The notes beneath the pieces are model-generated. The model was given only the letters and a program-made list of their open reading frames with translations, was not told the origin of the DNA and did not search any database. From an uncultured Opitutaceae bacterium (GTDB taxonomy: Bacteria > Verrucomicrobiota > Verrucomicrobiia > Opitutales > Opitutaceae), in the NCBI GenBank assembly GCA_903929355.1, contig CAIYUN010000032.1, positions 1 through 40,993 of the forward strand: a stretch of 40,993 nucleotides of DNA, written 5' to 3'. Positions 6,706 to 18,195 of this stretch are shown piece after piece. How positions within the stretch are numbered: position 1 is the first letter of the stretch; each line of letters starts with the position of its first letter. Both the position numbers and the translations under genes were made by a program.

Positions 6706-8157
6706 ATGATGCCGCCCACCGACACCCTTTCCCTTCCCGCTGCCGACACCGCCATGGCCAATCCCGTCGCCGGCATCGACCAGTCGTCCGGCAACTTCTC
6801 CTACCCGCAGAACTACGAGTTCGACGCCGGCACCGGCCTGTCTGAGAACACCGTCCGTTACATCAGCGAGGTCAAGAAGGAGGCGCCGTGGATCCTGGAG
6901 TTCCGCCTCAACGCACTGAAGAAATTCCTCGCGATGCCCATGCCCACGCACTGGGCCACGAAAGACCTCGAAAACATCAATTTCGACAAAATCCGGTACT
7001 ACCTCTCGCAGGGACAGAAGCCCAAGCGCACGTGGGACGAGGTGCCTGACGACATCAAGAAGACCTTCGAGCGCCTCGGCATCCCCGAGCAGGAGCGCAA
7101 GTTCCTTTCCGGCGTCGAGGCCCAGTTTGATTCCGAGGCCGCCTACTCCAACATCAAGGACCTCGTCGCCAAGCAGGGTGTCATCTTTGCCAACTCCACC
7201 GAGGCCCTCCGCGAGCACCCGGAAATTTTCCGCAAGTTCTTTGGCAAGGTGATCCCGACCGGCGACAACAAGTTTTCCGCCCTCAACAGCGCCGTCTTCT
7301 CCGGCGGCTCGTTCATCTACGTGCCCAAGGGCGTGAAGGTCGCGCAGCCGCTCCAGGCCTACTTCCGCATCAACGCCGAGAACTTCGGCCAGTTCGAGCG
7401 CACCCTCATCATCGCCGACGAGGGCAGCGAGGTCGTCTACATGGAGGGCTGCACCGCCCCCAAGTTCTCGACCAGCACGCTGCACAGCGCCGTGGTCGAG
7501 CTCGTCGCGCTCAAGGGCGCGAAGATCCAGTACATCACCGTCCAGAACTGGGCCAACAACGTCTTCAACCTCGTCACCAAGCGCGGCGTCGCGCACGAGG
7601 AGGCCGAGATCAAGTGGATCGACTGCAACATCGGCAGCCGCCTCACGATGAAGTATCCCGGGGTCGTGCTCAAGGGCCGCAAGGCCCGCGGCGAGGTTCT
7701 CTCCATCGCCCTCGCCAACGACGGCCAGCACCAGGACACCGGGGCCAAGATGATCCATGCCGCCGACGAAACCACCTCCAACATCGTCGCCAAGTCCATC
7801 TCGGTGGGGCAGGGGCGCAGCACCTACCGCGGCATCGTCCACATTCCGCGCCACCTCAAGGGCTGCCGGAACAACACCGAGTGCGACGCGCTGCTGATCA
7901 ACACCAACAGCCGCACCGACACCTATCCCGCCATCACCGTGCGGGGCGACCGCAACGCCACCCAGCACGAGGCGAGCGTCTCCAAGGTGAACGAGGAGAT
8001 GATCTTCTACATGCAGTCCCGCGGACTGACCGAGGGCCAGGCCATGAGCCTCGCCGTCAACGGCTTCATCAACGACCTCGCCCGTCAGTTCCCGATGGAG
8101 TATTCCGTCGAACTCAAGCGCCTCATCGACCTCGAAATGGAAGGCTCGGTGGGCTGA
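6706..8157 (+). CDS. sufB: Fe-S cluster assembly scaffold SufB
   Basis: Core scaffold subunit on which Fe-S clusters form, in complex with SufC and SufD. The protein is 483 aa and shows SufB hallmarks: [52 protein letters not shown], then the C-terminal SufBD core with [20 protein letters not shown]. The Cys in TECDALL corresponds to the conserved persulfide-accepting Cys of SufB (C405 in E. coli). ATG 6706, 6709 and 6754 are all possible starts; homology begins after about residue 17, so the N-terminal extension is uncertain. It is part of the fur-sufC-B-D-T series. Confidence 0.97.
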
Positions 8158-8179
8158 AGCCCACCACGGCTGACTGGCG

Positions 8180-8261
8180 AATGCGGAGTGCGGAATCGCA
8201 ACCCGCCATCGCAGCCGGCCTGATTCTACAATCCGCACTCCGCAATCCGCACTCCGCAATT
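8180..8261 (+). repeat. CCGCACTCCGCA repeat pair in inverted orientation, sufD leader
   Basis: A left arm AATGCGGAGTGCGGAATCG (8180-8198) faces two tandem copies of ATCCGCACTCCGCA on the right (8230-8261). Together they can form a stem in the sufB-sufD gap. The right arm ends 4 nt before the sufD ATG. The 16-mer TCCGCACTCCGCAATT at 8246-8261 is repeated exactly inside sufD at 8915-8930. Confidence 0.85.
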
Positions 8262-8265
8262 TTCG

Positions 8266-9600
8266 ATGTCCGATATCGCCACCATCACCGCAGCCCCAAT
8301 CGGCTCCTTCACCGCCGAGGTCTTCGCCGCGCATCTCGCGTCGCTGGGCGACGCGCCCGCCTGGTGGCTCGAGCGCAAGCGCGCCGCCTATGCGACCTTC
8401 GCGTCCCTCCCGCTGCCCACCCGCACCAACGAGGGCTGGCGCTTCAGCAACCTCTCCGGCCTCCAACTTGCCGGCTTCAAGGTGGAGCGCGTTGACCCCA
8501 ACGGGCAGCTTCTCGCCAGCCCCTTCGGCCCCGCCCAGCTCAACTTCATCAACAATACCACGGTCGGTGACGGCGCCGGCGCACGGGCCGAACTTGCCGC
8601 GCGCGGCGTCCTTGTCACGACCTTGTCCGCCGCGCTCCAATCGCACCCCGACCTGATCCGAGAGCACTTCATGGCCCAGCCGCAGAAGCTCGGGTCCGAA
8701 AAATTTGCCGCCCTCCATGCCGCTTTCGTTTCCGATGGAGCGTTCATCTACGTGCCGCGCGGGGTCGAGGTTCCTGCCCCCATCGTCATCACTCACGCCG
8801 CTTCCGGCTCCGGCACCGCCGTCTTCCCCCACACCCTCGTCATCGCCGAGGAGAACTCCAAGGCCACCGTCGTCGACCACTTCGTCTCAGTCTCCGACAT
8901 TCCGCACTCCGCACTCCGCACTCCGCAATTCGCCTGCGGCGCCAACGACCTCTACGCCGGCCACGGTGCGCAACTGACCTACCTCGCCGCCCAGAACTGG
9001 TCCCGTGACACCCTCTCGTTCCAGTTCAACTCCACCGTGGTCCGCCGCGACGCCCGCGTGCAGTCGCTCAACCTCCACCTTGGCGGCCGGCAGGCCCGCC
9101 ATGAGTCGCACTCGCAGCTGCAGGCGCCCGGCGCGTTTTCCGAGATGCTCGCGCTCACGGTGGCCGACGGCGAACAGGAGTTCGACCAGCGCACGCTGCA
9201 GATCCACCAGGCGCCCAACACGAAGTCCGACCTGCTCTACAAAAACGCGCTCCGCGACCGGACCCGCACGATTTTCTCCGGTCTGATCGTGGTGGACTCC
9301 GACGCGCAGAAGACCGACGCCTACCAGAGCAACCGCAACCTCATGCTCTCCGACGACGCGGAGGCCAGTTCGCTCCCCGGCCTGGAGATCCAGGCCAACG
9401 ATGTGCGCTGCACCCACGGGGCGACCTCGTCGCGCCTCGATCCCGGGCAGGAATTTTACCTCCAGTCGCGCGGCATCCCCAAGGCCGCGGCCGACGAGCT
9501 GCTCACCTTTGGCTTCTTCGAGGAGGTCCTCAGCCGCCTCGCCAGCGAGCCCCTCCACGACGCCCTGCACCAGCTGATCAAAACGAAATTCAAACAGTAG
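8266..9600 (+). CDS. sufD: Fe-S cluster assembly scaffold SufD with in-frame repeat insertion
   Basis: SufD partner of SufB and SufC, 444 aa. The N-terminal WRFSNLSGLQ segment, FIYVPRGVEVPAPIVITHAA, and the C-terminal core NRNLMLSDDAEASSLPGLEI with DVRCTHGATSSRLD and FYLQSRGI are typical; the conserved His is in RCTHGA. ATG 8266 follows the repeat leader. Residues 212-221 (IPHSALRTPQ), between VVDHFVSVSD and FACGANDLYAG, have no counterpart in the family as I know it. They are encoded by a CCGCACTCCGCA repeat at 8899-8931, so a repeat unit seems to have been inserted in frame. Confidence 0.95.
   Translation: MSDIATITAAPIGSFTAEVFAAHLASLGDAPAWWLERKRAAYATFASLPLPTRTNEGWRFSNLSGLQLAGFKVERVDPNGQLLASPFGPAQLNFINNTTVGDGAGARAELAARGVLVTTLSAALQSHPDLIREHFMAQPQKLGSEKFAALHAAFVSDGAFIYVPRGVEVPAPIVITHAASGSGTAVFPHTLVIAEENSKATVVDHFVSVSDIPHSALRTPQFACGANDLYAGHGAQLTYLAAQNWSRDTLSFQFNSTVVRRDARVQSLNLHLGGRQARHESHSQLQAPGAFSEMLALTVADGEQEFDQRTLQIHQAPNTKSDLLYKNALRDRTRTIFSGLIVVDSDAQKTDAYQSNRNLMLSDDAEASSLPGLEIQANDVRCTHGATSSRLDPGQEFYLQSRGIPKAAADELLTFGFFEEVLSRLASEPLHDALHQLIKTKFKQ
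8899..8931 (+). repeat. CCGCACTCCGCA repeat inside sufD
   Basis: ATTCCGCACTCC followed by further GCACTCC units and a GCAATTC end. It shares TCCGCACTCCGCAATT (8915-8930) with the leader copy at 8246-8261. Its length of about 30-33 bp keeps the sufD frame open and adds roughly ten residues to a surface loop of the SufBD core. Confidence 0.85.
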
Positions 9601-15800: not shown

Positions 15801-15935
15801 AATGAAACCATTCCGGTGGGGCCGTGCGAGGGGATGAAGGCGTTGTAACCGGAGCCCCGGCCCCGGTCCTCTGCGCCGAGCCAAATAATTTTTGTCGGAT
15901 TTGCCGCCGGGCGGATTCTGACATCTGACAACCCA

Positions 15936-15984
15936 GTGAACGACGATGCCGACCTGCTGCAGCAATATGCCCGCGAGGGCTCCG
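15936..15984 (+). pseudogene. 5' remnant of an ECF sigma factor gene
   Basis: From GTG 15936 the frame reads VNDDADLLQQYAREGSE, the start typical of verrucomicrobial ECF-type sigma-70 factors, where the family continues with an AFAELVRRH-type region 2. Here the match stops at about 15984 and the frame ends at a TGA near 16008. The A+T-rich stretch 15888-15935 upstream may be the retained sigma-gene promoter. A second piece of the same gene type lies at 18007-18140, after the protease/TPR gene. Confidence 0.7.
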
Positions 15985-18006
15985 AGGGAGGACGCGGAGT
16001 CTGCGATTGACCTCGGCGAGAAATCCGCCCGAAAATTTTTGCCGCCACCTGTACTGACGGATCCCCCCCTCCGCCTGTTCCTCCTGCTGATTGTGGCCTG
16101 GCTTGTCCTCATGGCGGTGAATTTCCCCCTGGCGCGGGCGGGCGGATCCATTTTTGTGCAAATTGCGATCGTCATCCTGTACGTTCTGATCGAGTTTATC
16201 ATCCTCTTCGCAACCGTCCGGGCAAAAGCACGCCAGGCATCCCCGGGTGAAATCTGGCGTCAAAGGCTGTTGCTCGTGCTCGTGCCCATGCCACTACTCG
16301 CCTGGGCGTTTTTCCCGGTCGCACCGGCGAGATACCCCGAGGTCTATTTCCAAAGCCTCACGATCAACGGCCGGGCCGCCCAACTGATCTTGGACACCGG
16401 GTCCGGCTTTACCAATTTGGGGAGTTCAGGGGCGGACCACCTGGGGGTCAAAGCCGCGCGAGCCAAGCCCGGAGAGCCGCCCCAGGTGATGAAATCCGGG
16501 GCGGGTGTGTGGGCATGGTCCGATTCCTTGCGCCTGTCTTGGGGGAACCAGTCGTGCACGTTTCCGCTCCCGATCGGGGCGGAATCAACTGAAATGGCCG
16601 AGCTGAACCGCCGCTACGGAGACGACGGAGCCATCGGCTGGCCGGCGGTTCGGGACAATATCTTGGTTTTTGATCCGCGGGGACGCACGGTACGCCGGGT
16701 GGAGGCGCTGCCGGCGGAGACAGCGGGGTGGCTCAAGCTGAAAGTGCATCGGCACGAAACCCTCTTGCTCGATTTGCCCGGGCCCAACGGCAAGGTCGGC
16801 ACCGTTTTGGTTGATACGGGTGACCACTCCGGTGTCAGTTTGCCCCATGAGCAATGGATGGAATGGCGGGCGGCCCATCCGCAGGCCACCGTGGGCACGG
16901 AGCATTACACGGGTGACTACGTTGGCTCGGGCACCAATGAATTCGCGTGGGCCGATGAATTCACCCTGGGCGGCCTGACTCTCACCCACGTGCACGTCAG
17001 CGAATCGCCGGCCATCGTCGGGGAAACGTCCATGAATTATGCCGGAACCCTCGGGCTGGACGTGATCGAACGGATGGATTTGGTCGTGGACGGGCCTGGT
17101 GGCTACGCCTACCTGAAACCCCGCCAGGCTTCGGACCCGGCTGTTTTGCCTACAGCGAGGAATGAGGCGCAACGCGACATGGGTAACTGGTCGGTGGACG
17201 ACAATGTGCGTCTGAGGGACGGCCCGGACTTGGCCATGTTTTATGATCTGCGTGGTTCGGAAAAGTTGCAGAAAGGCGATGCCGCTGGAGCCATGGCCGA
17301 TTTCAACCTGGCCATCCCATTGGATCCCGAAGACACCCACGGTGCCTATTCCGACCGGGGCTATGCGAAGAAGGACCAGGGGGATTTCGCCGGCGCCATC
17401 GCGGATTATTCCCGTGCGCTGGAACTGGACCCGACCCATGAGACCGACTACGAGAACCGCGCGCTGGCCAGGATCGCCCTGGGCGACTACGACGGGGCCA
17501 TTGCCGACTACACCCGCCTCATCGAGCTCGATCCCGAAAACTACATGAATCGTTTGCACCGGGGCATCGCGCGGCAGATCCAGGCGGATTTCGACGGTGC
17601 GCTGGCTGACTATGACCGGGTGGTGGAGCTGAACCCCAATGACTCTCCCCACTCGCGCCTCAACCGTCAGGTGTTGCGGCTGCGCTTGGGCACCGCCCCG
17701 GCTGATTTTGCCGACAACCTTTTGAGCTGGCAGGACACCTGGATGGAATCCCTCGGGCGGTTTGTCGCCGGCGAGTTGAGTTCCAAGGCGCTGCTCGCCG
17801 CCGCCGGAATCGACGATTCGGGACCCGCCAAGGCCCGGCGGGCCGTCGCGGACTATTACATCGGGATGATCCAACTGCAGAAAGGCGACCGGCCCGGCGC
17901 CCGGACATCCTTTCAGGATGCGGTGGCTGCCGGGGGCAAGACAACTGACGAATACCAGTTGGCCCGCGCTGAGCTGGCACGCCTGCAAGATCCGATTCGG
18001 CCATAA
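15946..18006 (+). CDS. Three-TM aspartyl-protease-like protein with C-terminal TPR domain
   Basis: Up to 686 aa. Three hydrophobic helices at about residues 42-61, 69-91 and 107-124 are followed by a retropepsin-like region with LILDTGSGF (D150), VLVDTGDHSG (D290) and GTLGLDVIERMDLVVDG. Two D-T-G motifs in one chain suggest a two-lobed or tandem aspartyl protease. Residues about 432-575 are TPR repeats (GDAAGAMADFNLAIPLDP, GDFAGAIADYSRALELDP, GDYDGAIADYTRLIELDP), and a helical tail follows. The start is uncertain: ATG 15946 and 15967 lie inside the sigma-factor remnant in a different frame, and TTG 16039 is a possible true start. Activity is inferred from motifs only. Confidence 0.8.
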   Translation: MPTCCSNMPARAPREDAESAIDLGEKSARKFLPPPVLTDPPLRLFLLLIVAWLVLMAVNFPLARAGGSIFVQIAIVILYVLIEFIILFATVRAKARQASPGEIWRQRLLLVLVPMPLLAWAFFPVAPARYPEVYFQSLTINGRAAQLILDTGSGFTNLGSSGADHLGVKAARAKPGEPPQVMKSGAGVWAWSDSLRLSWGNQSCTFPLPIGAESTEMAELNRRYGDDGAIGWPAVRDNILVFDPRGRTVRRVEALPAETAGWLKLKVHRHETLLLDLPGPNGKVGTVLVDTGDHSGVSLPHEQWMEWRAAHPQATVGTEHYTGDYVGSGTNEFAWADEFTLGGLTLTHVHVSESPAIVGETSMNYAGTLGLDVIERMDLVVDGPGGYAYLKPRQASDPAVLPTARNEAQRDMGNWSVDDNVRLRDGPDLAMFYDLRGSEKLQKGDAAGAMADFNLAIPLDPEDTHGAYSDRGYAKKDQGDFAGAIADYSRALELDPTHETDYENRALARIALGDYDGAIADYTRLIELDPENYMNRLHRGIARQIQADFDGALADYDRVVELNPNDSPHSRLNRQVLRLRLGTAPADFADNLLSWQDTWMESLGRFVAGELSSKALLAAAGIDDSGPAKARRAVADYYIGMIQLQKGDRPGARTSFQDAVAAGGKTTDEYQLARAELARLQDPIRP

Positions 18007-18195
18007 GGCCGCACCCATTTCGCCGCCACCAAGCTGGTGCAGTCCGAGCAGCGCCACCGCGCGCGCAAGCTGGCCACCCACCTGATGAGCGAACTGACTT
18101 CCGACGCCGGTCCCGATTGGGAACGGTTGCGCCCCCTGCTCTGCACCGGTTCGACCGTGACCTGCTGGGTGGATTTTCGACCCGGGAAAGCATAA
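18007..18195 (+). pseudogene. Internal remnant of an ECF sigma factor gene
   Basis: Directly after the TAA of the protease/TPR gene, and in the same frame, the sequence encodes THFAATKLVQSEQRHRARKL, then SELTSDAGPDWERLRPLL. This is the linker between regions 2 and 4 of verrucomicrobial ECF sigma factors (AA.KLV..EQRR.ARE and PDWERLRP.LD). Homology ends near 18140; shifting by one base gives LHRFDRDLL, a possible decayed LHEL..RDR. Region 4 is absent. With 15936-15984 it shows that a sigma gene once stood here. Confidence 0.7.

Follow-up and report, generated by a model that had tools for sequence, protein, structure and literature searches.

Scraps of an ECF sigma factor gene on either side of an aspartic protease/TPR gene in an Opitutaceae genome: a probable case of gene decay and replacement

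The protease gene and the sigma factor scraps around it

Our analysis concerned a window of 40,993 nt, which is the whole of contig C32 of a draft Opitutaceae genome (3.8 Mb in 91 contigs, 96.2% complete). At the locus studied, an open reading frame for an aspartic protease with TPR repeats lies between two scraps of an ECF sigma factor gene, and a promoter-like element precedes the first scrap (Table 1). The joins at 15986 and 18010 are those of the draft assembly. A tRNA scan and an Rfam search at gathering scores, both run over the window, gave no match.

Table 1. Positions of the features discussed, in window coordinates.
Feature	Position	Strand	Description
Promoter-like element, relic of the sigma family	15888..15921	+	Best window hit of a 34-position matrix; 14 nt before the GTG
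N-terminal ECF sigma scrap	15936..15986	+	GTG start; VNDDADLLQQYAREGSE; model positions 2-17; second-ranked HMM piece, E 0.066
Aspartic protease/TPR open reading frame	15946..18006	+	686 aa from the first ATG; Pfam, ortholog alignment, structure model
13-bp near-repeat, left copy	16037..16049	+	TTTTGCCGCCACC
Middle ECF sigma scrap	18013..18141	+	THFAATKLVQSEQRHRARKLATHLMSELTSDAGPDWERLRPLL; model positions 78-122; family HMM E 2e-11
13-bp near-repeat, right copy	18018..18030	+	TTTCGCCGCCACC; within the middle sigma scrap

The complete 2-kb gene for a three-TM protease/TPR protein that had originally been predicted between the scraps is borne out by the sequence. The frame is open throughout to its TAA stop at 18004-18006, it matches both TPR families and Asp_protease_2 above the Pfam cut-offs (PF13650; 27.5 bits vs a gathering cut-off of 24.3), and its hydrophobic stretches, at residues 36-66 and 60-95 (two overlapping runs) and 107-128, make up three regions. 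The defining feature of Asp_protease_2 is the catalytic DTG motif, which occurs here at residues 150-152 and 290-292, one per lobe, both kept in the closest ortholog (see below). The score against TIGR02281, 19.2, lies far below the cut-off of 57.95. A structure model of the protease part, for which 17 sequences were aligned, reached a mean pLDDT of 83.5. It has a putative endopeptidase of Bacteroides fragilis as its first structural match, followed by pepsin-like enzymes and tethered HIV-1 protease; the likeness to these structures is at the level of fold only, since the TM-scores by query length range from 0.38 to 0.58 with an rmsd over 6 among the 50 matches listed. The GC3 of the gene is 75% vs 82-92% in four neighbouring genes. 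The gene is intact and probably expressed on its own. Its product is probably located in the inner membrane, where, as we infer for orientation and activity, a two-lobed pepsin-like protease and the TPR repeats would face away from the cytoplasm. The same genome encodes a paralog of 971 aa (L068, G000:C31, 4684-7599, minus strand), in which TPR repeats flank the aspartic protease part on both sides.

The two scraps were assigned with a family HMM built from 38 members and run on all six-frame stop-to-stop pieces of at least 15 aa over the whole window. The first-ranked piece, at 18007-18192, had an E-value of 2e-11 and the second, at 15849-16007, an E-value of 0.066, followed by a third at E 3.1; thus both scraps match the ECF sigma family by sequence, and the original prediction of sigma-like peptides on either side of the protease gene holds, for a single family. 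The members of the HMM were drawn from loci found via the middle scrap, which makes the score of that scrap circular in part. Neither the N-terminal scrap nor the promoter-like element played a role in choosing members, and both thus constitute independent evidence, the N-terminal scrap being a weak match when taken alone. The middle scrap is 53% identical over 45 residues to one intact family member (tblastn), and Pfam matched neither scrap when each was searched by itself. In translation, the frame of the N-terminal scrap continues to a stop, leaving an open remnant of 24 codons. The middle scrap, which covers the end of region 2 and the linker, begins 6 nt past the TAA of the protease gene, directly after it as predicted, and its frame stops at 18195.

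The scraps are collinear on one strand and do not overlap in the model. The remnant lacks the 60 positions between them (18-77), and with them most of region 2; this agrees closely with an earlier estimate of about 57 lost residues. That account was right about the internal gap and left out a further loss, that of everything from region 4 on, after position 122. An HMM search in all frames for a frameshifted remainder of region 4 after 18141 gave nothing under E 3.1 beyond the two scraps. The three intact members that were scanned have region 2 inside residues 23-97 and region 4 inside 122-177, and neither region is complete in the remnant. Without the core of regions 2 and 4 the remnant cannot work as a sigma factor, and the sigma gene is therefore dead.

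The sigma family and its promoter-like element

The family to which the scraps belong is widespread among the relatives of the host. With the middle scrap (43 residues) as query, 200 genomes of the same taxonomic family were searched; 105 had matches at E <=1 and 37 at E <=0.001 (hand count, own genome included), with 22 matches in one genome. The ten best non-self matches share 49-58% identity with the scrap and fall within reading frames that are open over 378-665 aa. The three full-length members that we scanned have sigma regions 2 and 4 (region 2 in one of them scoring 23.6 bits, just below the cut-off of 24) followed by a long C-terminal extension, which ends in TonB_C in one, and none had an anti-sigma domain among its Pfam matches. 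Family genes also occur in tandem runs, of which contig C102 of genome G027 carries two: one of 6 genes in a stretch of 13 kb (L108) and one of 4 further genes in a stretch of 8 kb (L109). By eye, the C-terminal parts of these tandem genes are not alike.

A profile search of the host genome found no intact member of the family. A six-member sigma alignment gave seven host matches at E <=0.01. One is a copy on contig C63 (137 bits over positions 1-93; 1-96 in the 38-member HMM), and another is the window scrap, with 34 bits across 46 positions. The remaining five score 18-41 bits; most of them cover much of the model, and two outscore the window scrap. On their sequence scores these five are probably other sigma factors, because scores of 202-374 bits are reached by the intact members in genus mates. 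The C63 copy (L194, G000:C63, 4458-4736, minus strand), the only other clear one in the host, is cut after model position 96, has no promoter element, and passes into unrelated sequence next to an open reading frame that looks RecA-like by eye. Five genus mates (70-98% complete) have 0, 0, 1, 2 and 4 family matches at E <=1e-20, and the sigma family may be shrinking in the host lineage.

A shared element with the consensus TTtTTTGTgCGGTTTtcgngnCGGCGGgTGcTA precedes 31 of 33 intact family genes; we built the matrix from these 31, omitting the two regions that did not fit. In 21 of the 31 the element is 12-15 nt ahead of the start codon. The relic in the window scores 18.5 bits, with a runner-up of 13.2 bits on both strands of the whole window, and is outscored by 28 of the 31 family sites in a leave-one-out comparison. 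Three family genes outside the matrix gave 30.6 bits (L069), 24.1 bits (L140) and no element (the truncated C63 copy). The consensus at <=3 mismatches has no copy in the host genome, G005 or G028 and three in G027, but the family genes of the latter number at least 10, which means that this strict pattern misses many true sites. The promoter relic is a second independent sign of a sigma gene at this site. The conservation of the element suggests shared or self-regulation of the family and very short leaders, and its position before intact sigma genes makes self-regulation directly testable.

Relatives of the protease and the start of its gene

The TM-protease part was matched in 14 of 252 genomes of the host's family, own included, and among the non-self matches one was 58% identical and the rest at most 42%. 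This sole close ortholog, in another genus (G028), is 60% identical over the aligned whole and adjoins a gene for a TPR protein. The protease gene alone is common to the window and the 19-kb ortholog locus (L140; blastn), and no sigma scraps lie at the edges of the ortholog. An intact family sigma gene follows the ortholog on the same strand at a distance of 4 kb, and some old link between protease and sigma genes may therefore exist, which weighs somewhat against the reading favoured below. No further ortholog came out of a scan of named genomes, nor any protease relative out of 90 pattern matches in viral contigs. Over 645 codons the ortholog pair has a dN of 0.29 and a dS of 0.89, values that indicate purifying selection on the protease gene since the split from the ortholog and do not date the insertion.

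Relatives of the protease occur at 17 further loci, which total 166 kb. A clear family sigma was found in two of them (L069 and L140), in both cases downstream on the same strand, and L206 has a distant sigma (E 6e-12). With the window included, family sigma and protease genes co-occur in 3 of 18 loci, which is slight. At L069 (G005:C16) the family sigma, at 7800-8578, is truncated at a DDE transposase fragment; an aspartic protease gene that also encodes a PDZ domain lies about 0.5 kb upstream of this sigma.

The ATG of the ortholog aligns with TTG 16039, past the N-terminal sigma scrap, and the probable start of the protease gene is thus this TTG (655 aa), with ATG 15967 or 15946 as alternatives. 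We put this start forward as a proposal from the alignment, because the two genes show no significant likeness in their upstream DNA (132 of 2000 shuffles did as well). It had been suggested that the first ATGs may come from out-of-frame sigma sequence. Both 15946 and 15967 do lie within sigma sequence in another frame, but neither need be the start, given the position of the ortholog ATG.

The position of the start also bears on whether the promoter and start region of the old sigma gene were taken over by the protease gene and now drive it, which we consider quite unlikely. A promoter relic and two in-frame ATGs do lie upstream in the right order. Against this, the relic scores below 28 of the 31 family sites, the ortholog start is aligned downstream of the sigma scrap, and the search of the host genome turned up no intact family sigma. 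This last result, together with the absence of a consensus copy at <=3 mismatches under the strict pattern, speaks against the earlier suggestion that the protease gene uses the old sigma promoter, although that promoter could be readable by another sigma.

Probable decay and replacement of a sigma gene

The arrangement is probably best explained by the decay of one sigma gene, in which a protease gene from elsewhere replaced codons 18-77 and the 3' part after codon 122 was also lost. The original reading as a replacement, or an insertion with deletion, stands up well here: the scraps are collinear, about 60 codons are lost, an unrelated gene lies between, and its ortholog has no scraps at its edges. 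Both flanking peptides match a sigma family, and the searches run turned up no relative with the same three-part arrangement in conserved form. The promoter relic in the expected place, the truncation of the only other clear family member in the host, the sporadic matches to the TM-protease part, the lower GC3 of the protease gene and the purifying selection on it speak for this reading as well. In such a scheme, the site would have held an ancestral ECF sigma gene, which belonged to a large family of the Opitutae with a long C-terminal extension and which became a pseudogene; the 2-kb aspartic protease/TPR gene would have arrived from elsewhere, most plausibly by illegitimate recombination, and taken the place of codons 18-77; and everything past codon 122 would have been lost either at the time of the split or later. 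We infer this order of events from the present arrangement.

The places where the ancestral site might survive were searched through the neighbouring genes. The upstream kinase has 48 non-self matching places; 13 of these were searched by tblastn with one sigma and with the family HMM, and no sigma was found, with at least 5 kb of downstream sequence in just 8 of the 13. Five genus mates gave no match to the GDSL gene on the downstream side. Neither an intact sigma gene at the syntenic site nor an empty ancestral site was found among the kinase and GDSL places searched.

The two scraps could instead descend from two tandem family sigma genes that flanked the protease gene, the first having lost its 3' part and the second both its 5' and 3' parts, with no insertion into a single gene. 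Tandem runs of the family do exist in G027, and a family sigma lies downstream of the protease on the same strand at L069 and L140. We nevertheless judge this origin unlikely, as it requires three separate losses, and the scraps, being collinear and without overlap, fit one gene split by one event. It is very unlikely, in our view, that a mobile element brought in the protease gene and left the 13-bp repeat as a target duplication. The two copies of the near-repeat, at the edges of the inserted gene, are identical at 12 of 13 positions, a match equalled by 4 of 1500 random pairs of window segments of equal sizes (a few pairs that lay too near each other were skipped yet counted within the 1500). 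However, no inverted repeat of at least 12 nt joins the two edges, and Pfam shows no transposase match for the gene that lies between the scraps. The near-repeat is no clear target duplication, because the left copy, which shares bases with the probable TTG start, has no recognisable sigma sequence before it; immediately before the right copy stand the residues TH, which still match the sigma family, and a looser third copy within the gene indicates that the motif is not rare. Lastly, the finding of a nearby family sigma, downstream on the same strand, at 2 of 17 other protease loci gives rise to the idea that membrane aspartic proteases of this kind cut and release the membrane-anchored ECF sigmas of the family, in which case the window would preserve what is left of one such pair, the protease having survived the loss of its sigma; we hold this to be highly improbable.

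We thus favour replacement within one decaying sigma gene. The case is one of ordinary gene decay and replacement and not a new kind of system; it would provide a clean example of a regulator that decays while a different gene takes over its site, in a lineage where the sigma family may be shrinking. Among the literature matches listed for ECF sigma factors of Verrucomicrobia, Opitutus and Opitutaceae, as judged by title and the start of the abstract, none described this family or event. At L069, as in the window, a truncated sigma of the same family lies beside an Asp_protease_2 gene; unlike that of the window, it is wholly downstream of the protease and ends at the DDE transposase fragment rather than being split around the protease. 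ECF48, ECF52 and ECF53 are described as ECF sigma factors with membrane-anchored C-terminal extensions (PMC8999054). The intact relatives of the remnant resemble these groups, so described, in having regions 2 and 4, a long extension and, by eye, a hydrophobic stretch; they differ from them in that the remnant in the window is dead and in that the intact family is given no numbered ECF group here. The window protease, for its part, resembles the clan AA aspartic proteases (Asp_protease_2, PF13650; TIGR02281) in its two DTG motifs and in a model like tethered HIV-1 and pepsin-like enzymes, and departs from them in carrying both lobes in one chain, with three hydrophobic regions before and TPR repeats after.
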